From Pomacea canaliculata (lineage: Eukaryota; Mollusca; Gastropoda; Architaenioglossa; Ampullariidae), in assembly GCF_003073045.1 (NCBI RefSeq), contig NC_037593.1, forward strand, positions 12,470,735-12,534,734: a stretch of 64,000 nt of DNA. Direction: 5' to 3'. The notes beneath the pieces are model-generated. The model did not search any database. It saw only the letters and a list, made by a program, of their open reading frames with translations, and was not told the origin of the DNA. This document shows positions 19,400 through 62,166 of the stretch, piece after piece. The translations under genes and the position numbers were made by a program. The first letter of the stretch is position 1. Each line of letters opens with the position of its first letter.

Positions 19400-32220
<12,821 letters not shown>

Positions 32221-40196: not shown

Positions 40197-43100
40197 TCAC
40201 GACTTGTCACTGACTGACATTACGTCCCTCGACGACATCAGGCGCCGGCACTGCTGCCGGAAGCGCGCGCTGCAGAAGCTGTACACGATGGGGTTGGTGA
40301 CGCTGTTGATGAAGTAGGAGCGATGGGCCAGGTTGTACAGGTTCAGCCGCCAACCGGTCAGGTCCACGTCGATGGAGTGGTGCACGGCCCGCACGCACGT
40401 GATGGTGAGGTAAGGGAGGTAGCTGATGATGAAGATCGCCGTCAGCACGAACATCATCCAGGTGGTGCGCGCAGGGATCCGCTTTCTCGTGTGGCGCCGC
40501 CGCACGCCCGATGCCGACCTCGTGCTGCCATTGATGTTGTCGTTGTCGTCGACGCCGAAGGAGCGGAGGCGGCGGATGCTGCCGTTGACGAAGGCGCCGA
40601 AGCGAGACAGGGAGTCAGTTTTGCCGCCGCTTCCGCGCATGCTGCCACTGGGACTTGAGGAAACTGTGACAACAGACTTGCTCTTGGCCCTCCCTCCACT
40701 GGACGCCATTGTAGGAGACTCCGACCTCACTGATGACAAAGACTTTTGCTGTCCAGGCTCGGAACCAACGTCGCCTACGAAGTCGACCCGTGGACCTAGT
40801 CGACCTGTCTTGCCGGCTTCACTGCTTTTGTCTACTCTGAGTTCTGAGTTCATTTCTAAGCCATTTTCTTCTAAGTCTCTTTCTACGCATTTTTTCTTGT
40901 CCCTTTCAGTCCTGTCCGGGGATTCATCTCCTTGGAACGGTCCAAGCTGGAGAACACTACTGACTTCATCTCCAACAGGCACGTCACCTTCGCTGGATGA
41001 TCGAGTTCTTTCGATGTGTTTTAACCCCTTGCTGGAGTGATGAAAGCAGAGCAACTCTTCGGAGAGGCCGCGAGCTAGACTTTGCACACGGGTCTCGCGC
41101 AGTTGATTCTCTTCAGAGTCAGACTGAGGTTGGCTGCTCTTTGCTGGACCTGTAGGACTTTTACTCACACTTCCATTGAGCCTTCCGTCCTCATGGTGGG
41201 GGTTGTTATGGTGGTAGTGGTGGTGAAGTTTCTGGGTTTCTGATTCCGATTGCGTATCCGCCAACGACTCCATTTCCTCTTCGTGAGCTTTGGTGGGCGT
41301 GGCCTTGCCTTCGGAGCTGCGTCGCGTCTTCATCTTGTGCCGGCGCCTGAACTTCAGCCAGCTGGTCCGGGTGGGGCGATGGGCGTGGCTTTCGCTAGCA
41401 GAATGAGAAGGGGCGTGACTGTCCCCGTACCCGGAAGACACCGAAGGCCTCCTGTTGAACACTTCGTCGTCAGGGCCTGACGAAACCTCGTGCCGGTTAT
41501 CGACATGAACATGAGACCTCATCGAGGAACTCACTGAAGCTTCCGACATGGCCACGCTTTCAAAGCGCCCTCTCAAGCCAATAGCCTCGCTCTGACTAAA
41601 CACTGCCGACTGGCGCTTATGCTGCACTATCTTGTTCGCGATCGTGACGTAGGCCGTTGTCATAGTACCCACGCATGCGAAGAAGACCAGGGCAAGAATA
41701 ACGTTGTAGATAAGCTGGAATGGAGTATGGATGTATCTGTCGTCCACGGAGCAGGTGGAACCGTTGACATAGGGATTACCTAAGGAGACCAAAAATCCTG
41801 TTATAAAATGTTCAAAATGTTTTTGTGCTTCATAGTGTAAATACAAACTTTATTATGGATAGAGTCAATCTAGTTCCACGATCTAGGGCATCAATGTACT
41901 TATCTACCTTTTCCATTTGTACATTACTAGTTTCGTTTTTGGAAATAGTGTGATAATACCTTGGTATGAAAGTCATGAACACAGCTACCTAGGTTTTATG
42001 CTGAGAGAATACCCAGTTACTGAAATAATTACAGTAATTTAAATACTTAACTAATTGGCTGCATATTAGATATCATCGGGTTATATAGCCATTTATTTAA
42101 ATAAAATTGCTCATAACGACCCCAAAGAAAGTCTCCCTTTGCATTGCATTCGTCATGTCGAAAGATGAACTTTTTTTTGTGCTTACTTTTGACATATTTT
42201 CTTCCTGAGTGAATACTGGCTGGGGGGTGGAGTTACATTTTCATATTAGTCTCGTATATAAGATAAAATTACATTACAGTTGTCCATATAAAAATGTATA
42301 CAAACAGACGTATGCATGTATACCATATTTAATACATACACGCACTACACACCCGTCTTCATAGCTGTGACAATATTACAAACCTGTAGGGACAGTATGG
42401 CGACCATTGAGGACAACAAATGGAACTGCGATAACAAAGGCCACAGATACACACCAGAATACTGACCTCTTGACCTTAAAGAAAGGAAAACAAAACTGCT
42501 TTTAACAAGGAAAAATACGAAGACAACAACATATTCATGCATTTATTTATTTAAAATCTTGTAGCTTATCTTCACTACCACTCTTATTAGTATTGAGATT
42601 GTCTTTATTTTTCATCGATATTTTTACACGTGCAAACATCGCCGTCGCTGTTGTCACCATCACCATCTCCACCAACTTTATGCGACCTCTAAAGTCAGTC
42701 ACAATCCGCCACCACCACCACCACCTCCACTACCAGCTCTACTATCACCACAACTTACAGCTACATCTCGCAAACTGAACTCACCTCCTTCGGACTCAAC
42801 TGGTGCTTCAAAGGAAGACAAATCTTCTTACGGCGGTCAAGAGCCACAGCTACGAGAATAAAGCCAGAGGCGAGCGTGAGGAAAATGTTGGAGAACCTGA
42901 AAGTCCGGCACAGCCAGCGGTTGTTGAACGTTTTCGTGAAACGGATATCTGTTATCTCCCCTGGTATGGAGATCACGTTGAAAAGGAAGTCGAAGACGCT
43001 CATCGTCAGGATGTAGGTCCTGGTGGAGCTCGGCCGGAACCTCTTGTAGTATACGAGCAGAACCAGAAGATTACCCATACTGCCCGCGATGGCCTGGAGG

Positions 43101-43240
43101 CCCATGAACACCAAGGAGGGCAGAAGCTCCAAGGCCTCCTCATCCTCCTCACGATGCAATAAATCACGAGCATCTTTTTCTGACAAGCGTGTGCTGTTGG
43201 GGTCAGGTATAACTTCCATCAACAGAGGATAATAACCCAT
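40197..43240 (-). CDS. Rhodopsin-class GPCR with very long third intracellular loop
   Basis: A seven-transmembrane receptor, probably for a neuropeptide or amine; ligand unknown. Exons 43240-42785, 42474-42384 and 41779-40197 give 709 residues. TM1 ends GSMGNLLVLLVYYKRF, TM2 starts TYILTMSVFDFLFNV, the TM3 disulfide Cys is in WLCRTF and its ECL2 partner in GSTCSVDD. TM6 is MFVLTAIFIISYLPYL without the usual CWxP, and TM7 is SVTNPIVYSFCS with intact NPxxY. The TM3 end reads ALDRRKKICLPL, so DRY has become DRR. Loop ICL3 is about 370 residues, Ser/His/acidic-rich, and looks disordered. N-glycosylation is possible at NST near residue 15. It is a paralogue of the downstream receptor at 47-48.5 kb. 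Start chosen at the first Met; an in-frame Met8 is possible. Confidence 0.88.
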
Positions 43241-44487
43241 GATCTCGAGGAGAGAATGTTAGACACACTCGATGGAAAGTCTCCCGATCTGCAGACAGTT
43301 TCGTCAGGGTTTGAAGGGAATTCCAACACTTCCAGAGAGTTTTACAGTTGGTATAAAACATGCACAGGATCTCAGTTTTGAAAGGTCTGCAGAGAACCAT
43401 AAGGTCTTTGACCTTTGCGAGGTCTGCCGAGTACTCAGTGGTCACTGGTCAGCCATCAGTCCATGCGGAAGATTTTAAAGTCGACTTTTGTTGTCTTGGA
43501 TTGTCGGCAGCAGCGGATATCTCGGCAGGTTATTCAAATCTGAAACCGGAAGACGGAAAATGAACGCAAACCGCCAATCCACGATGCTCAGACAACCATT
43601 ATTAATTCCTGTATCAGTAATCATTACCCTAGTTGTAACTAGGTGATACTGCGCACGACACTCATGGACGAGACGTTAGCCGCCATTTCAGGGTTGAACA
43701 TTTCCTACACTCGAATATTTTGCTGTCTTAATATGGACACGTATATACCCCCCCCCCCAAACACACACACACACATACACACACATGCATGTTGTACGTA
43801 TACACGTACACGCAAGGAAGTCAATCTGATAAATATTTTTTCAAAGGTGTGTTTAAGTAACTTTTTGAAAGTTTTCTATGCTTATAGATCAGTTTATCAA
43901 CAAGATGAAAGACTTTTGGCACACCTGGCTTAACATGCTTAACATAAACACTCAGGGTAATTTTTCAGAGGTTTAAACACACTTTGGCTGAAAGGAGACA
44001 ATAAAACAATTTTTTCGCTGCTGCGGTTTTTGCTGGTGTTAGAAGCAGCACAGTGCGACTGCTAGGACACAGCAGCAATCCTACGGGAGGGTGGTGTGTC
44101 CACTTGATGAAGAGAGCTAGGAAGCAGAGGAAACCTAACAAACGCTCTTTCACACACACAGGATCTCCATGTATCATTAAAATGTAGTGGCTTTTAGTAC
44201 AGACCCTTACAGCGGAATCTCAAACTGTGCGATTTGTTTGCTTGAAGAGAAGAAATAAAGACATAAACACAAGCAGGGTCAGCGAATGATTTGCTGCTTA
44301 CAAAACTAACAAAACAAAACAGTATTTCTTGATACTGATTTAGACTAAAGATCTTGTGAAAGAGAGGATAGCAGCAATCGAGGAAATGCGTCCATCCTCT
44401 TCAGAACCTATTTGTGCTCTTGAAAAAATGCCCATCCAGAAATATGGAAAGGCTGTAAGGCTTTATTCGTTGTCTCAATGCACTTTA

Positions 44488-47005: not shown

Positions 47006-48520
47006 TTACTTGCCCTTGCCCGTTACAAGACTGCGACACTCCTGCCGAAATCTGGCGCTGCAGAAGCTGTAGACGAGCGAATTCACCGCACAGTTGAAGA
47101 AGTAGGAGCGGAGGGCGATGTTGTAGATGTTCAGCTCCCATCCCACCAACCCCTTTCCCACGTCATCAGACACCGCGCGTGCGATGATGATGAGGAGGTG
47201 CGGCAGGTAGTTGATGATGAAGACAGCGGTGAGGACAAACATCATCATCGTCGTGCTCTTCGGAATCTTCTTGATAGAAGTGGCTTTTGCGCGTTTGATT
47301 TGCTTCCCTTGCTTAACATCGGCTTGCGAAAAGGAGGAAGAACTCTTCTGACTCTGAACGGGTGTAGTCGACCTGTTCTCGGCAGCAACAGATGAATCAC
47401 GATTCTCAGATGGCTTCGCATTGATGGGACGAAGGTTTCGGTCGGTGCCATCGACTATCAGGAGCTGGACTTCTGCTTGAGGAAAGCACGGAACAAAGTG
47501 CGCGCGCCGCCGCTGCTGGGAGGACTGATGGCCGCCGGCTTGTAGAGAGTCCAGGGAAATCTCCTCGGAGTGAGCAGAGCTCGCCGGCAGCTCCGAGCTG
47601 GCCGATTCGTTCTTGGAACTGCTTGTCGTGTCACCAGTAGACGACGGCTTACGCCAGCCGCCGGGAGTCTTCAGACTGGCCTGTCCGGTGATGCTCTTCG
47701 AGCGCTTCCGGTGCTGCCAGAGCTGACGTCCGACCCCCACGTACGACACAACCATGATGGTCACACAGATAATGAAGGCGAGGGCCATCAGTGCGTTGTA
47801 AACCATCGGGAACGGCGTCGACACGAAAGCGTCGTCGATGGAGCACGTCACGCCCGTGACGTTCGTCACACCTGTGGGGATAGTGTGACGCCCGTTCAGC
47901 ACGGCGAACGGGATGGTGAGGGCGACGGCGACGCCAATGCAGACTGCCACAGAGACCGCGATCTGGCGAGGTGTCGCCTGCTTCTGCAGGGGTCGGCAGA
48001 TCTTGCAGTACCTGTCCCTCGCCACGGCCACTAACACAAAGGCGGAGACTAAGGTGAGAAAGCTGTTGATGAAGCGGCAGATGCGGCACAGCCAGGGCAA
48101 GTCAAAGGTGAAGGAAAACCGGATGTCGAGGATCTCTCCGGGAAGTGACATCACGTTGCCCAGCAGGTCGAAGACGCTCATGACCAGGATGTATGTGCGC
48201 GTGGCGCTGGGTTTGAACCTCTTGTAGTAGACCAGGAACACCATCGTGTTGCCCACCACGCCGAGGATCATCAGGAGGCTGATGTAGATCAACGTGGCCA
48301 ACATCGATCTCGCCATCTTTTTGTTCAGCTCATCAAAAAATTCATTGTCGATGACCTGCTCAAAGCTTGTGTTGACATAAAGAGCGGTTGTGGTCACAAT
48401 ATTGTCAGTCGGTCTGAAGTTGGAGTTGAGCATTTGCCCAATAGCTGAACTGAAGCTTTCAGCAGTAGTAATTTCAGGAGCTAGTAAATCACCCCCAAAA
48501 GCGACTTTCATGAACGCCAT
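47006..48520 (-). CDS. Rhodopsin-class GPCR, coding region without introns
   Basis: A complete 504-residue seven-transmembrane receptor, ligand unknown, paralogous to the receptor at 40-43 kb. TM1 ends GVVGNTMVFLVYYKRF, TM2 begins TYILVMSVFDLLGNVMS, TM3 ends VAVARDRYCKICRPL with an intact DRY, and the ECL2 Cys lies in GVTCSIDDAF. TM5 is MALAFIICVTIMVVSYVGVG, TM6 FVLTAVFIINYLPHL, TM7 NCAVNSLVYSFCS, where NPxxY has become NSLVY. ICL3 is about 130 residues, Ser-rich. N-glycosylation is possible at NTS near the N-terminus and at NVT in ECL2. Introns present in the paralogue, at positions equivalent to those around TM4 and ECL2, are absent here. Start is the first in-frame Met with an upstream in-frame stop. 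Confidence 0.9.
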   Translation of the reverse strand: MAFMKVAFGGDLLAPEITTAESFSSAIGQMLNSNFRPTDNIVTTTALYVNTSFEQVIDNEFFDELNKKMARSMLATLIYISLLMILGVVGNTMVFLVYYKRFKPSATRTYILVMSVFDLLGNVMSLPGEILDIRFSFTFDLPWLCRICRFINSFLTLVSAFVLVAVARDRYCKICRPLQKQATPRQIAVSVAVCIGVAVALTIPFAVLNGRHTIPTGVTNVTGVTCSIDDAFVSTPFPMVYNALMALAFIICVTIMVVSYVGVGRQLWQHRKRSKSITGQASLKTPGGWRKPSSTGDTTSSSKNESASSELPASSAHSEEISLDSLQAGGHQSSQQRRRAHFVPCFPQAEVQLLIVDGTDRNLRPINAKPSENRDSSVAAENRSTTPVQSQKSSSSFSQADVKQGKQIKRAKATSIKKIPKSTTMMMFVLTAVFIINYLPHLLIIIARAVSDDVGKGLVGWELNIYNIALRSYFFNCAVNSLVYSFCSARFRQECRSLVTGKGK

Positions 48521-48869
48521 ATTGCTGTTTTGTAATAAATTTTTTAAAAATTAAATAAAGGGCGAGGCTTTGGTTCTTCACAGAATGGTGCCAATATCTT
48601 GCATGCTTAAAGCAGAATGAAACAAAAATAACTTTAAACTGCAAGGCAGAATGGAAATTCAAGATTCCAGCAGAACATATGATGCGAGGTCATAGGTCAG
48701 GCTGTAGGGTGTGGCGAACTCAGCTCTGGACAAGCGTAGTCAAGTGGCACTACATTTGTCGTCTGTAAACATCAAGAAAAAAAATACAAAAAATGAAATT
48801 GAGAACAAAAGGAAACAAGTACAACATCAATGGCTATGATAACAGCTAAAATACGATGATTTAGATGTT

Positions 48870-54546: not shown

Positions 54547-54633
<87 letters not shown>
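54547..54633. repeat. (GT)n microsatellite next to a splice acceptor
   Basis: About 43 uninterrupted TG units end 8 bp before the TTATTTCAG acceptor of the first deaminase-like gene, inside an inferred 313-bp intron of the 5' UTR. Confidence 0.95.
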
Positions 54634-54638
<5 letters not shown>

Positions 54639-54667
54639 CAGATCAAGGGAAAAGATTTTTCACAGTA

Positions 54668-55876
54668 ATGAAGATGCAGCTCATCGTTATTCTCGTTGTT
54701 CTCATTGCTGGCCCTTGTCATGCTACTCCCATGGAGAACTACACGCCTCAGCAGGTGAAACCTTTGTTTAATCAAATGAGAATGTACGGAGATAAAAAGA
54801 AGAAGGAGAGTGAAATCGATTACCGACAATTTCTGGTACTACTAGTAGCTTCGCACGATGAAATTTTGCACGGGCCAATTGAAGATTTCAAAGACCCGCA
54901 TTTCACACACAACTTTGAGAATGGCAACTACAAGGACAGAGTAATGCTTGTCATTAATCAGGACCAACAACATGGGGAAATCCAGTGTACGGACGACGGA
55001 ATACTCGCCGAAAAACTCGCAAATTTCAGACTGATAAAGCAAAACGAGTTTCCCATTATCATGATGTATTCATATTACATCCCTTGTGCAGATATTCCGA
55101 ACCTTGGCTATTCCTGCTCCGAAGAGTTAGCGATCTTTGCGTCCTGGAACAGTCAAAAAACCGGCCTTTTGGTAGCGTACACTGACATTTTTCATCTAAC
55201 TGATGAAGAAAAGGCTAAAAATTTTATGCTTCATGCAGGCATACCCGCATTTAGATTCCAGGAGACCCAACCTCGAAAATGGGAACTTGTTTCTGTCTAT
55301 ACAGTACAGCCTGTACAACAAGTTCCTCTGCTCCTCAGCCTGTTCCAGTGTATTAGCGGAACTGTAAATCGCGCGAGATTATCGGAGAATACAGTCGTCC
55401 AGAAGCAGATCATTGCCTTCTATGTCAATTCCATGGCCTACCAGTGTTTCTCAAAAGAGACTGCAAGACTGAGAGACTCAAACAGACAACACCTGCAGTC
55501 ATGCTTCTGTGGCTATGCTAGAGCCAGTATCGGCGATGATTCCAAACACTCTGAGAAGGTGGCTGAGGACAAGCAGTACATCACTGCCTGTGCAAACTCA
55601 GTCTTCGATCCGGTGATATTACTGCCTGGTCAACCAGTTCGCCCATTTGATCCATATTCTTACTCATGGGAAAGCACCTCAGACCCTCGCCTTAGTCAGG
55701 TCTTTCCTCAGTCTCCGGACAGCAGTCGGGGAAGACACCAAATCTCTTGCTTGGAAGCAGACCTGACACTGGAGTCTCTGTGCACACGAAGAGGCTCCAA
55801 AAAGCGACCCCAGTCTCCGTCTGAGGGACCAAAAACGAAAAAGCCTCAAATGGCAGCTGGAAGAGGAAGAGGTTAA
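54668..55876 (+). CDS. Secreted cytidine-deaminase-like protein, copy 1
   Basis: A 402-residue protein in one coding exon. Residues 1-19 (MKMQLIVILVVLIAGPCHA) look like a signal peptide. The N-terminal domain (about 25-210) has helix YTPQQVKPLFNQM, strand FLVLLVAS, then HGE at 102-104, strand PIIMMYSYYIPC with PC at 139-140, C150 and SEELAIF, then strand GLLVAYTDIF and a helix to HAGIP. That order is the deaminase-fold plan: His and two Cys bind zinc, Glu is the proton shuttle. Known families have H-x-E and PC-x2-4-C; the x9 spacing here is unusual. A C-terminal domain (about 215-372) of no recognised family has conserved Cys228, 260, 279, 308, 361 and 372 and the motif FYVNSMAYQCF. The tail is basic (KKRPQSP, KTKKPQ, GRGRG). 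ATG54668 is preferred over upstream frames that read through the GT repeat, because it gives the signal peptide and follows the acceptor. Deaminase identity is an inference from motifs; activity and substrate are unknown. Confidence 0.75.
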   Translation: MKMQLIVILVVLIAGPCHATPMENYTPQQVKPLFNQMRMYGDKKKKESEIDYRQFLVLLVASHDEILHGPIEDFKDPHFTHNFENGNYKDRVMLVINQDQQHGEIQCTDDGILAEKLANFRLIKQNEFPIIMMYSYYIPCADIPNLGYSCSEELAIFASWNSQKTGLLVAYTDIFHLTDEEKAKNFMLHAGIPAFRFQETQPRKWELVSVYTVQPVQQVPLLLSLFQCISGTVNRARLSENTVVQKQIIAFYVNSMAYQCFSKETARLRDSNRQHLQSCFCGYARASIGDDSKHSEKVAEDKQYITACANSVFDPVILLPGQPVRPFDPYSYSWESTSDPRLSQVFPQSPDSSRGRHQISCLEADLTLESLCTRRGSKKRPQSPSEGPKTKKPQMAAGRGRG

Positions 55877-57359
55877 AGAAAACAAGAATCTGAGATTAAA
55901 CGAGGGAAACAAAGGTAGAAAGACGTTATGGAGAAGGAAAAGTACAACGAGTGGGAAGAAACTGGATTAAGAGAGGAAAATGGAGACATTTATTATTCTG
56001 TTAGAGATTCTACTTTGACTAATACTCACTACCCGTGACTTCTTTATACTTATCATGAAGACATACACTGTTGTATAAAATGAAATTTTAATATAAAATA
56101 ATTGTTGTTAAATAATAAGACATATTGTGCGCACGAACAACAGCACAAGCTTGCCAAAGTTGGCCACGTGACACTCCACAAATAACACAGCACCCATCAG
56201 AATTGACCTAAGGGAGAAGGGAGGATAATTTCGAAATCGAAAAAAATTCCTGCTAGGCGGGCGGCAAGGATCAGAGCAACTTAGAAGTAATCCATTGTAG
56301 TAATGTTTAATTTTACGATCGATTATTTTAGAAATAGTATCTTAATAAATAAAATAATAAGCGAAAATTCATCATTTAATTTAGACGCATAAAAAAAAAA
56401 CTGAAGTTGAAATTTTTAGACTAAAAGAAAAATCGCACATCATTTACAGCTTCCCAATCTCACACCTAATATATGACAGTTATGATTTTACTTTTAAGAT
56501 AGTTCATTATGTTTTTGTATCTTGGCCTTTATGTACCATAATGCACTTAAAAATTTCTTACTGTCATTTAATAATCACTTGTCATTTTACACTCACTTTC
56601 TATTATATAAAGATCGCATGGCTCTTTGTCATATAACTACAAGTTGTTGGTTGAAAATGCATCCGCGAAATTTCCCACTAACACTCAATTATACGTAGTT
56701 GTAAATTTATTACAGCATTGCACTGTATTTCCTACAAATCAAAGCTGTTGTTTATGTCGTTTACTACAGCACATAATTATAATTATTCTAACAGGCAACC
56801 CAATGCATTTAGATATTACAGCACATTATTATATGTCACATTTATTACTTTAGATTATAGTTCAGTTAATCAGATTATTATATTAATTTTGTATTAATCA
56901 TATATTATTTTGTATTAACCTAGCGAGATTAATTGGTTCTAATATTTTTAGTACTTTTGATATAAAATGTATGTGCTTTAACAAATATTCGTTGCACTGA
57001 TAATAAACAACATTCAAACAGGGATAAGGTTAGTGATGTGTGTGACATGTATGCCCGCTTTTGCTTGTGGTCGGGTGTGTGTGTGTGTGTGTGTGTATCA
57101 CATGATATGATGAAAGATTTAACTGTCCAGAGTTCCACTGATAAAATACAATCGCATCTTTAACATTCCCATGTGTTTGTGTAGCATTAAAAGCTATCTT
57201 TGCCTGAAACGGAAAAGAAAAAGTTACAAATGAAAATAGTCGTTAAAGTGGAATCTTTTACAGATAGTTTCCAACATATACAATATTCTCAGTATTTAGT
57301 CTCAACACGGCACATTTCAATGGACAATCAACAGATTACTGATCCCATTTTCATGCTTC

Positions 57360-57885
57360 CAAGCATAGACATAAGTCCAACCACCGTAGAATAGGATCTG
57401 GCATAGCCACAACATAATGTCTACTACCAAGTAAATCTGTACAAAACCCTGTTAGTGCTCTACGGATGCGACACGTGGACTCTGGTCGCCCATACGGAAA
57501 GGAGAATCCAGGCATTTCAGAACAAGTGCCTGAGGAGGTTGCTCCGGATCTTGGGCAAAGAACCAACGACTTTGTAAGAAACAAGATTGCCACACTCGTA
57601 GGACACCAAGACCTCTACTTTCAACAGTCAAGCAAGGTAAGCTGGTCTTCTCTGACCATGTGACCCGGCACGATACCCTGTCGAAGACCCTCTTTCAAGG
57701 CATCTTGGAGGGCAGTCGACACTGCGGTGGCCAGAGGAAGACCTGGCTTACAAACCTCACAGACTGGACCGGTCGACCTGTACAGGACCTGCTGACCATT
57801 GCCCACCATAGGCAAAGACTTGGCAGGAACAGACTTCCTGTTCCTTTTTCTTATCACTCACCAGACAGAACTTTGAGATAATCTT
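57360..57885 (+). mobile_element. RTE-like LINE, C-terminal and 3' fragment
   Basis: Plus-strand translation gives LYGCDTWTLVAHTERRIQAF (about 57455), NKCLRRLLRILG, then KTLFQGILEGSRHCGGQRKT (about 57680) and WLTNLTDWTG. These match the order and spacing of the C-terminal zone of the 21-25 kb LINE (YGCETWTLLAATEKKLQAF, LQGTLEGSRRRGRPRK). Truncated and frame-broken. Confidence 0.8.
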
Positions 57886-59034
57886 CTTAATGATATCCAA
57901 GTGAGATTTTCATCTAATCCCATCGCTTGCCAAGTGTCGTTTCCTGAAACTCTTCTGTCTGAAACCTTAAGCACAGCTGAGTGGTGTGCATCCGCGGAAA
58001 TTCCGGCTTCGTGTGTTGACTGCTTGCACCAAGAAGGTCAGCAGGGACTGAAGGACTGACAGCGCCTTATCTTATCATCGTCTTAATGCGTGTGACACCA
58101 AGATGCAGGTGAATTGCTTCCCACTTATGTGCTTGCGAGCATGCCTGGGCGCACGAGTTCTCTAACCAGCTCGGCATCTACCAAAGTAGGGGAAACAGTA
58201 GAGTGGTTAGGATTACTTTTTTATTTTAATTACTTTTAATTTTACCTAGTTATTTCAAATAAGCTTAGGACAAGATACTGACTTCCCAAATTGGAGTGAA
58301 TAGCATTGTTCATTTTTCGAGATCCAAGACTACAAACAACACCATGCACAAGAGCGAAGTGCATGGGTCCCACAGGTCGCCAGAACTGAATACAATGTTT
58401 TATCTTGGACACTGGGTGAGCTTAAGTCACCATGACTAAAAGAATGATTAACCCTGAGAGGAATAATTGTAACGATGTGTATGACACGTCGTCATGACTA
58501 CAGGCAGTTGTTAAATCCATTTCTGCCATCGCTCCACGATGATTTGCTTCCCTGTCTGTACTCCTTAATCCTTAGCCAATGATCACATGACGCGACTGAC
58601 AGACAGGCACATATATGTGTATGTGTGCTTGGAATCCATTGTCAAACCGACGAAACTTAAATTAAAATTTTGAAGTGTAGCGATCACAACATATTACTAA
58701 TATTACATCTGTCACACCACACTGTTTGATGTGCGCATTCGTACAACAAAAAGACCAACTCATTTTTTCTGAGGCTTCCCCGCCCAGAGTGACAATATCT
58801 TTAACAATAATATGATCAGCAGAACATTAAATAAGCACTGTAATCACAATTTACTCATTACACCGCCATGGTACATTAACACACTGTTCAACACAACAGT
58901 AGCATTACAATGTTCATCACAAAGACAAAATTAATTTGTTTTTCACAACAATTCTTTAAAGAACATTATTTGGAGCAATTTTCTGTTCATCATTCCTTTG
59001 GGTTTGTGAGGCGGGGACTTTTCTTATTGTGACC

Positions 59035-59225
59035 GGGAATAACTACTGGCAGCAACGAGATGGTTTTAATCCGAGTCACTAAGGCTATGGTCTTGTAACC
59101 AGATGCCTCATGAAGAGAAGGAACATCCCCGAAACGAGATGCGAACCCAGGACATCCAGTCTTCACCGTGTTGCTGACAGGTGCTAACCTTGAAGCCCCT
59201 GGACCACCATGGGGCAGCGGTAGAC
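59035..59225 (-). mobile_element. tRNA-derived SINE-like sequence
   Basis: On the minus strand GCCCCATGGTGGTCCAGGGG, then CTTCAAGGTTAGCACC resembles a tRNA 5' half with an A box, and TCCTGGGTTCGCATC about 50 bp later resembles a B box. A T/A-rich body follows. It is too diverged to be a functional tRNA. Confidence 0.55.
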
Positions 59226-59434
59226 AACGGACATCTCACTGCACATGCGTAGAAAACACGGGAAGAAAAAAAAAATCAGACTCGTTGCTGGTATCCTAGA
59301 CATTTTAATACGCAGTACAAATTATAGTCGAGTTTCTTTTTCCCGGTGGGTGAGCGACATGTTGAAAAAACCTCGTGATCCTTTCTAGCTTGTTCATTGG
59401 TTGAAGACATGTGAACAGCAGGCCTGGGAGGGCT

Positions 59435-59440
59435 TATATA
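59435..59440 (+). promoter_or_regulatory. TATA box of second deaminase-like gene
   Basis: GGGCTTATATACAGC places a TATA box about 30 bp before a plausible start in the CGCACCCTCACACACTGACA region. A strong donor follows at 59548. Confidence 0.6.
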
Positions 59441-59465
59441 CAGCTCAGACGCGCACCCTCACACA

Positions 59466-59547
59466 CTGACAGCACTCGAAGAGATCTCGACAACAAAGCT
59501 ACCCTTGCCAGTCTTTGACCAGCGCCACAACGACTTCATACACCCTG
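59466..59547 (+). other. Inferred non-coding first exon of copy 2
   Basis: From the predicted start site to CACCCTG|GTAAGT. The matching acceptor AATATTTCAG ends at 60817, giving an intron of about 1.27 kb in the 5' UTR. Inferred from signals alone. Confidence 0.5.
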
Positions 59548-59984
59548 GTAAGTCTCACATCTTTTGTTTTCTGAATTGCTGAGTCAAATTATCTTTGGTG
59601 TTGATTAATTTAACAAATGTGTAGTCCTTTTACCGTTCAAACACTGAATATATCTGTAAAAAGAATATATTAGTTGAGAGATAACTGGTAAACGAAACCT
59701 TAAAATTTCAAACAAATATAGTCATATGTCTGATTTTGATTTAACTAAAGAGACGGTGCAAATCGACGCAGTGTTTGTAATATTAGATAAATATAATGAA
59801 GTTTTTGCACGAGATTATCCCAGAGAAATTGAAAAACAGCAAAAAGTTCCATGTCCTACGAACGAAGTGGACTCTCGGCGAGACCACTAAACTAAAATAA
59901 TTTGCTTATACTCTTTATATTTGACATGACCAAATTCACAATTTAAAAAATAGAGTTGTGCTGCATGCTCATCTCCTTCTTCTT

Positions 59985-60036
59985 CTTCCTCCTCCTCCTC
60001 CTCCTCCACCTCATCATCATCATCATCATCATCATT
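59985..60036. repeat. (TCC)n(TCA)n trinucleotide tract
   Basis: TCTTCC and TCC units run into about eight TCA units, inside the 5' UTR intron of the second deaminase-like gene. Confidence 0.9.
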
Positions 60037-60782
60037 AAAGTTAATGTCTTCTTTGTGGTGTGCACTGTAAGAATTCCTTTTTCGGTTCCTTATAAATTTT
60101 GAAGGTGTTTCCTTTTAAAGACTCTGAGTACAATTTCGCGCTAAGCCTTAGATTCATCTTAATAATTATTAAATATACTTCATCTCCTACGAAACTGCAC
60201 CTGCACCTGGTCTCCTGTTCCGGAAACCTACTTTTCAAAGGTCGAAAGCGCAGTCGTCCAGCTTCCGCTTTCGTTTGTGATATATCTGTGATAAATCTGA
60301 ACTTAAAGCGAAGTTAATCCTACCTGTGGCATAGTAAAAGAACTGAGCTTCCTCGCTCCTTCTGCCATTATTCATGATAAAACAGGAAAGTCAACCAAGC
60401 ATGACTTCCACAGCCTAGAAGACCACTGACTCAGATCCCACGACCACTCGCAGCAGTCCGAGAACCAACTACAGGTGCATGGGGTGAGGGTGAGGGAGGG
60501 GTGGGGTGAGAACCTCCCTTTATCTCTGTTGTCTAGCTTTTAGGTCCATCCAAACTTCACACTCGTTAGACAGCACACTAACACCTGTGTCTGTGTTCAT
60601 GCAGACATCCTGCGTGGTGCGTATGTTCATTTTTATGCTAAAGTACCTGTTAATTCTAGATGATAAATAAGTGATTTTATTTCAGATATGTTAAAAAATA
60701 TGATAAGACACTGCCAAGCTTGCATAGTATTGTTAGCCTTTGCATTAATGTGCATGCGTGCGTGCGCGTGTATGCGTGCATA

Positions 60783-60806
60783 TGTGTGTGTGTGTGTGTG
60801 TGTGTG
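60783..60806. repeat. Short (TG)n run before the acceptor of copy 2
   Basis: About 12 TG units end 11 bp before the TTTCAG acceptor. It occupies the same position relative to the acceptor as the long (GT)n of copy 1. Confidence 0.85.
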
Positions 60807-60837
60807 AAATATTTCAGTGCGCGCCTGTACAGTAATC

Positions 60838-62166
60838 ATGGCAACAAAGGAACTCATTGTCCTTCTTGTTCTCATCGATGTCGCCTGTGGTGCTGTGCCA
60901 GACTACGAGTACACGGCCGGCACGGTGAAACCTTTGTTCGACCAGATGTACGACTACGGCGAATTCAAGAAGAAGGAGACTGGAACCAGATACCATCAGT
61001 TTCTGGTCGTGCTGGTTGCTTCTATCTCCGAAATCACAAACGTTCCACATGAAGATCTTACAACACAGGACGGGGTACTCCACTTTGAGAATGTGCGCTT
61101 CAAGAACAGAGTAAGATTTGTGCTAAACGACAATCAACACGCTATACAGGAATTCAATCCAAACCGTCCTTTGCACGGAGAAATGCAGTGTATTCACACA
61201 GGAATACTTGATAAAATGATCACAGAATATAAACGAATAAAAGAAGGACACGAGTTTCCTATTGTCTTGATGTATTCATTGTACATTCCCTGTGCGAATA
61301 TTCCAGACCTTAGCTACTCTTGCTCAGAAGAGTTAGCAATCTTTGCTTGCCGTCGTAGACAGGACGCACACTTCGTGGTTGCGTATTCTCATATTTACAA
61401 TCGTACTGATGAAAAGAAGGCGGTTGAGTTTCTGAGCACGGCAAATATACTTGGATTTAGATACCAGCGAAACTCACAGGGGACCTGCGATCTCGTTTCT
61501 CCTTATGAAGTCAAATATACTGAACGCCATTTGCTGCTGCAAGAGTTGTTCAAGTGTCTCAACAACACCATTAGTCGATCTCGGTTTCCAAGGAAGCCGG
61601 CTGATCGGACAGAAATCATTGCATACTATGTCAACAGCATGGCATACGAATGTTTCGGACAAGAAAATGGCAGACTTAGGGACCAGAACAGACAACGTGT
61701 GCAATCATGCTTTCATATGTATGCTAACAAAAGTATTGGCTTTGAAAGTCTTCTCTCCAACATGGAGACTGTCAACAAGGACAAGCAAGACATCGCTGGT
61801 TGCATTACGAACGTCTTCGCTCTTCCGAATTTGCTGCCTGGACAACCAAAAGATCCTTTCAATCCATTTTCAGACACTTGGAGCAGCACAGCAGATCCTA
61901 AACTTAATGAGACCTTTCCTGAATCTCCGGCAAGTCGCAGGGGACCTCGCCAAATGTGTGTGGAACCAGAGTTGACACTGGAATCTCTGTGCACACAGAA
62001 GGGAAAACAGCGAAGAGGTCTGAACATACAGAAGCGTCGAACACCAAGAGCAGCAGCTGTAGTTGAAAAGAAAATGCTTGCTGCAAACAGAAAAGGAGCA
62101 AGAAAAGGAGCAAGAAAAGAAACAAGAAAAGAAACAACAAAAGAAACAAGAAAAGAAAAATGTTAA
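60838..62166 (+). CDS. Secreted cytidine-deaminase-like protein, copy 2
   Basis: A 442-residue paralogue of copy 1, again one coding exon on the same strand. Residues 1-19 (MATKELIVLLVLIDVACGA) look like a signal peptide. The proposed deaminase domain has YTAGTVKPLFDQM, FLVVLVAS, HGE at 113-115, PIVLMYSLYIPC with PC at 151-152, C162 in YSCSEELAIF, and strand HFVVAYSHIY. An 11-residue insertion precedes HGE relative to copy 1. All proposed zinc ligands and the catalytic Glu are kept in both copies. The C-terminal domain shares Cys240, 272, 291, 322, 374 and 385 with copy 1, and YYVNSMAYECF and RLRDQNRQ. The tail is longer and lysine/arginine-rich with ARKG and TRKE repeats, ending in KC. The start follows an AATATTTCAG acceptor by 20 nt. 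Same caution as for copy 1: the fold is inferred and the target unknown. Confidence 0.75.
   Translation: MATKELIVLLVLIDVACGAVPDYEYTAGTVKPLFDQMYDYGEFKKKETGTRYHQFLVVLVASISEITNVPHEDLTTQDGVLHFENVRFKNRVRFVLNDNQHAIQEFNPNRPLHGEMQCIHTGILDKMITEYKRIKEGHEFPIVLMYSLYIPCANIPDLSYSCSEELAIFACRRRQDAHFVVAYSHIYNRTDEKKAVEFLSTANILGFRYQRNSQGTCDLVSPYEVKYTERHLLLQELFKCLNNTISRSRFPRKPADRTEIIAYYVNSMAYECFGQENGRLRDQNRQRVQSCFHMYANKSIGFESLLSNMETVNKDKQDIAGCITNVFALPNLLPGQPKDPFNPFSDTWSSTADPKLNETFPESPASRRGPRQMCVEPELTLESLCTQKGKQRRGLNIQKRRTPRAAAVVEKKMLAANRKGARKGARKETRKETTKETRKEKC

Follow-up and report, generated by a model that had tools for sequence, protein, structure and literature searches.

A tandem pair of apple snail genes encoding putatively secreted proteins with a predicted AID/APOBEC-like deaminase fold

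RESULTS

Two paralogous genes lie in tandem in a 64-kb window of the Pomacea canaliculata (apple snail) genome, the window being the whole stretch analysed here (64,000 nucleotides of contig NC_037593.1, positions 12,470,735 to 12,534,734). Gene 1 and gene 2 (Table 1) encode proteins of 402 and 442 residues, which share a deaminase-like zinc motif and, as predicted from a structure model of gene 2, very probably a deaminase fold. The first-pass annotation of this DNA had described a tandem pair of paralogues with signal peptides and with an H-G-E motif followed by a PC...C motif in the right order; the pair and the motifs were borne out, the signal peptides being putative. Both open reading frames (ORFs) are intact and run on the same strand, and their products are 46% identical across almost their full length. 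Identity of the pair by codon position amounted to 0.64, 0.69 and 0.52, with a nonsynonymous divergence (dN) of 0.43 against a synonymous divergence (dS) of 1.19 (NG86), values which indicate that the protein is under constraint. No third copy was found in the window by tblastn with both proteins and with the database proteins P0001 to P0008, P0001 being gene 2 itself. Before each start codon, an acceptor-like stretch ending in TTTCAG follows a TG repeat, which leads us to propose an untranslated first exon; to judge from the sequence, each gene probably comprises one untranslated 5′ exon upstream and a single coding exon. The TG repeats preceding the coding exons are pure in both genes (54547-54633 and 60783-60806) and adjoin the presumed splice acceptors. 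As a pair, they are perhaps a remnant of the duplicated ancestor.

Protein searches returned six full-length relatives besides gene 2 (P0002, P0004, P0005, P0006, P0007 and P0008), and these six together with the two window proteins constitute the family set used throughout (n = 8), the partial protein P0003 being excluded from alignments. The nearest database protein to gene 1 among the matches listed was P0004, with 89% identity. P0006 comes from the mussel Mytilus galloprovincialis and P0008 from Batillaria attramentaria, which is, like P. canaliculata, a caenogastropod. Searches of phage records, viral contigs and prokaryote genomes gave no sequence relatives. The set may be incomplete, since the protein search depends on exact words in common and one search, which scored the best 8000 candidates, did not retrieve P0005.

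All eight family proteins contain the arrangement HGE-x34/35-PC-x9-C, counted in P0004 and P0005 from the aligned HGE, as these two carry an additional, earlier and unaligned one. H113, G114, E115, P151, C152 and C162 (gene 2 numbering) are invariant throughout the set, and the histidine and the two cysteines are the presumed zinc ligands. Both window proteins begin with strongly hydrophobic N-termini followed by small residues (Kyte-Doolittle maxima of 4.2 and 3.3 over nine residues for the two proteins), a putative signal peptide from which we infer secretion.

Predicted fold and active-site loops

The structure model of gene 2 showed a central sheet and the element order a1-b1-b2-a2-b3-a3-b4-a4-b5 that characterizes the deaminase fold, with HxE and PC...C beginning helices 2 and 3, respectively. 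AID/APOBEC proteins accounted for 29 of the best 33 Foldseek matches and for all 50 listed VIA matches, the best structural matches being APOBEC3 and AID, and identity to the classical AID/APOBEC3 matches ranged from 12 to 17%. Structure prediction and the Foldseek search agree with the deaminase fold anticipated from the motifs, with AID/APOBEC nearest. At the level of sequence profiles, the three best Pfam matches of P0008 were NAD1 (E 0.022), APOBEC4 (E 0.029) and SNAD4 (E 0.11), all of them extending across the core and all below the cut-off, SNAD4 reaching 13.0 bits of the 27 needed.

The same fold is common to dCMP deaminase (1vq2, Foldseek rank 19) and Rib2 (ranks 28, 30 and 31), and the substrate is not readable from the fold. 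The pair could be secreted or lysosomal nucleoside or nucleotide deaminases, with for instance a digestive or salvage role in the snail gut, and neither polynucleotide editors nor immune factors. We regard this as unlikely, given that the best structural matches are instead APOBEC3 and AID, that the weak Pfam deaminase matches of P0008 are to AID/APOBEC clades, and that the extra loops and the C-terminal domain would exceed the needs of a small-molecule enzyme.

The nine residues between the two cysteines imply a conserved, enlarged loop 5, placed at the entrance to the active site. Among six divergent members, mean pairwise identity was 0.62 in loop 5 and 0.65 in helix 3, and loop 3 varied in length from 5 to 22 residues. 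In the closely related pair P0001/P0002, changes cluster in loop 4 (three of seven positions identical) and loop 6 (two of five), away from the active site, as might be expected of a binding face. Deaminase-family members without known activity exist, and the fold might have been retained in a secreted binder of nucleic acid or of a partner, the metal site serving stability and not catalysis. The pair formed by gene 1 and P0004 singles out these loops less (loop 4, 5/7; loop 6, 3/5; loops 1 and 7, 4/6 each), and the catalytic glutamate is invariant in all eight proteins, a residue that a purely structural zinc site could do without; a non-catalytic binder appears, on balance, quite improbable.

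C-terminal domain and basic tail

The deaminase-like domain is followed by a C-terminal domain of ∼160 residues with five invariant cysteines in the eight-protein alignment, among which C322, C374 and C385 (gene 2 numbering) are spread over the domain. The model of gene 2 residues 224-392 was helical, with a predicted local distance difference test (pLDDT) score of 86.6, and no clear structural match to it was found in the PDB. The basic tail noted in the first-pass annotation was present in both window proteins and proved not to be a conserved trait, since P0005 terminates shortly past the last cysteine. Much of the gene 2 tail is made up by a 12-bp tandem repeat in the coding sequence (62085-62158), which lengthens it, and the tail of the close relative P0002 is shorter.

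Secretion, a helical C-terminal domain and tails that are basic in both window proteins would aid targeting or entry if the proteins were anti-cellular effectors, that is, deaminases that enter microbes or parasites and mutate or damage their RNA or DNA in the manner of bacterial toxin deaminases. The lack of conservation of the tail, together with the lack of relatives in the phage, viral and prokaryote searches described above, speaks against such effectors, and we consider them improbable.

Public gene model of gene 2

P0003 corresponds to P. canaliculata C0Q70_07331, a public gene model that covers gene 2 in part, starting inside the protein and devoid of the leader. This model also omits an in-frame stretch holding the entire zinc motif (Table 1), and the family is easily overlooked because the sole public model returned for both genes lacks the leader and the catalytic core. 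The gene prediction may be wrong here, or there may be a splice form whose protein has no deaminase. Were the public model correct, the true product would contain no deaminase at all; the omitted stretch does begin with GTAAG, end with AG and keep the frame, and a minor splice form without it may exist beside the full form. Against this, the reading frame stays open through its equivalent in both window genes, the six other full-length relatives also contain the stretch, residues in it rank among the best conserved in the family, and the gene 1 coding sequence contains none of GTAAG, GTGAG and GTATG. It is therefore very improbable that the public model represents the true product.

Table 1. 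Positions of the features of the two genes, counted from the first nucleotide of the window
Feature	Position	Strand	Remarks
Gene 1, splice-acceptor-like stretch upstream	54631..54641	+	ends TTTCAG; sequence reading
Gene 1, coding sequence	54668..55876	+	402 aa, single exon; 46% identity with gene 2
Gene 1, putative signal peptide	54668..54724	+	about residues 1-19; hydropathy
Gene 1, deaminase-like domain	54737..55312	+	aligned to gene 2; fold inferred from gene 2 model
Gene 1, HGE motif (presumed His zinc ligand and catalytic Glu)	54971..54979	+	alignment
Gene 1, PC-x9-C motif (presumed two Cys zinc ligands)	55082..55117	+	alignment
Gene 1, Cys-bearing C-terminal domain	55313..55786	+	alignment
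Gene 1, basic tail	55787..55873	+	net charge +9
Gene 2, TG repeat and splice-acceptor-like stretch upstream	60791..60817	+	ends TTTCAG; sequence reading
Gene 2 (P0001), coding sequence	60838..62166	+	442 aa, single exon
Gene 2, putative signal peptide	60838..60894	+	about residues 1-19; hydropathy
Gene 2, deaminase-like domain	60913..61515	+	residues 26-226; structure model and fold matches
Gene 2, stretch absent from C0Q70_07331	61111..61551	+	441 nt, in frame, GTAAG to AG; holds entire zinc motif
Gene 2, HGE motif	61174..61182	+	residues 113-115; alignment
Gene 2, PC-x9-C motif	61288..61323	+	residues 151-162; alignment
Gene 2, Cys-bearing helical C-terminal domain	61516..61995	+	residues 227-386; model of residues 224-392
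Gene 2, basic tail	61996..62163	+	net charge +17; partly 12-bp tandem repeat

Neighbouring features

Elsewhere in the window, 10 of the 179 ORFs were scanned against Pfam. Matches to the rhodopsin-type G protein-coupled receptor family (7tm_1) appeared on the reverse strand at 40200-41849 (below the cut-off), 42764-43258 and 47009-48550, and these three receptor-like ORFs are perhaps neighbouring paralogues. A row of ORFs resembling a retroelement of the long interspersed nuclear element (LINE) type occupies 21155-24279 on the reverse strand, where the sole ORF scanned, 23197-24279, matched Exo_endo_phos and Exo_endo_phos_2. On the forward strand, the exon-like ORFs 25434-25805 and 26486-26806 matched successive parts of Pkinase, of STE20/MST type by eye.

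DISCUSSION

The explanation that we favour, and which taken as a whole we hold to be somewhat more probable than its negation, is that the tandem genes encode secreted AID/APOBEC-like deaminases that edit foreign nucleic acid in innate defence. According to this proposal, both products would be zinc-dependent deaminases with the AID/APOBEC-like (helix-4) fold, exported by their signal peptides. A zinc ion would be held by the histidine of HGE and the two cysteines of PC-x9-C, and the glutamate would activate a water molecule to displace the amino group from cytosine, which becomes uracil. The longer loop 5 between the two cysteines and the length-variable loop 3 may alter the shape of the active-site mouth, while the cysteine-rich helical domain could stabilize the protein extracellularly or bind a partner. 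The likely task of such enzymes would be to deaminate single-stranded RNA or DNA of foreign origin, whether in haemolymph, in mucus or, after uptake, in cells. Conservation and prediction bear directly on the intact genes, the motif and the fold; zinc binding, secretion, activity, substrate and role are argued by analogy with SNADs and AID/APOBECs. On these grounds we consider it likely that the proteins are active deaminases, and reasonably probable, with less assurance, that their substrate is a polynucleotide. A more specific and rather doubtful version would make them a mollusc clade, so far unnamed, of polynucleotide deaminases that act outside the cell, have an enlarged inter-cysteine loop and a disulfide-stabilized C-terminal domain without a clear PDB match, and mutate the nucleic acids of viruses, bacteria or parasites.

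Several observations weigh against the favoured explanation. The Foldseek TM-scores were below 0.5, and confidence in the gene 2 model was moderate, with core minima near loop 3 and the first zinc cysteine; convergence of the histidine, the glutamate and the two cysteines is implied by element order only, the block 151-160 having a pLDDT of 54. The VIA list re-examines Foldseek's own matches, so the two results are not independent. The profile search for deaminase families suggested in the first-pass annotation remained below the cut-offs: P0008 yielded the weak AID/APOBEC-clade matches already described, while the other seven members matched no Pfam deaminase model, three of them having one chance-level match to an unrelated model. 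The family consensus and the isolated cores of both window proteins matched nothing, and no curated Pfam AID/APOBEC model was matched above its cut-off by the eight members, the consensus or the isolated cores. Searches of the PDB by sequence gave no match for the gene 2 protein or P0008 and, when made with the alignment, only MarR-type matches (E 0.15-0.2). Likewise, C-x9-C falls outside the Cx2-4C spacing of classical members. Finally, the role in defence is drawn by analogy from SNADs and AID/APOBECs, nothing here points directly at immunity, and we doubt it slightly more than we credit it.

The closest parallel is offered by the SNADs, named SNAD1-4, from fish, other cold-blooded vertebrates and sponges, which according to published accounts stand alone among the AID-like enzymes of multicellular eukaryotes in carrying a secretion signal, their biochemistry being described as unknown (PMC11004436, PMC8201067). 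Expression of fish SNAD1 is reported to be highest in immunity-linked organs and to respond to infection, with no biochemical data given (PMC11004436), and 13 snad1 genes have been studied in carp (PMC13402138). The mollusc proteins resemble SNADs in their signal peptide (putative here), their HxE and two-cysteine motif, their predicted AID/APOBEC-like fold and the presence of cysteines near the C-terminus (PMC11004436), as well as in having several paralogues, like carp snad1 (PMC13402138). They are set apart, to judge from published descriptions, by their occurrence in molluscs instead of vertebrates and by the long C-terminal domain with its five invariant cysteines. They further differ from SNAD1 in the cysteine spacing, C-x9-C against CVxxC. 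Pfam includes SNAD1-3 models, and none of them was among the matches of the eight mollusc proteins. Sponge SNAD4 (PF18750), compared by profile only, is likewise a secreted invertebrate deaminase, and its profile was matched by P0008 over the core; this match remains far below the curated cut-off and the other seven members are unmatched.

The classical motif is given as HxE-x25-30-PC-x2-4-C, with CVxxC in SNAD1 (PMC11004436), or as H[AVS]E-x24-36-PCxxC (PMC5956068), and the HGE found in all eight family proteins, followed at a spacing of 34 or 35 by PC-x9-C, does not conform to it. The classical enzymes (APOBEC3A/B/G/H and AID) are intracellular and carry Cx2-4C (PMC11004436), whereas the mollusc family combines C-x9-C with a leader and an additional C-terminal domain, besides the low identity in the matches listed. 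Sea urchin SpAIDL and other invertebrate AID-like proteins, including those of a brachiopod, share the HxE-PC..C arrangement and proposed immune roles, but two of them are 193 and 194 aa long with PCxxC, and neither 'signal peptide' nor 'secreted' occurs in the main text on these proteins (PMC5956068). In the gastropod Aplysia, three APOBEC3-like loci have been listed from InterPro domain signatures (PMC9334734); they offer a further case of predicted APOBEC-type genes in a gastropod, known here by description and not by sequence, and differ in being recognized by InterPro whereas the Pfam deaminase models miss both window proteins.

No description of the mollusc family was found in the accessible portions of the literature on mollusc APOBEC-like or secreted deaminases, where an earlier mention is possible. 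As the C-x9-C spacing is unlike that of classical members and SNAD1, and no Pfam match lies above the cut-off, we file the proteins neither as SNAD1 nor as classical APOBECs and propose to call them the secreted AID/APOBEC-like deaminase family of molluscs. Its small single-exon genes provide a means to test extracellular nucleic-acid deamination in animals, and the family, which occurs in gastropods and in a bivalve, would add members with a distinct layout to the secreted AID/APOBEC-like group.
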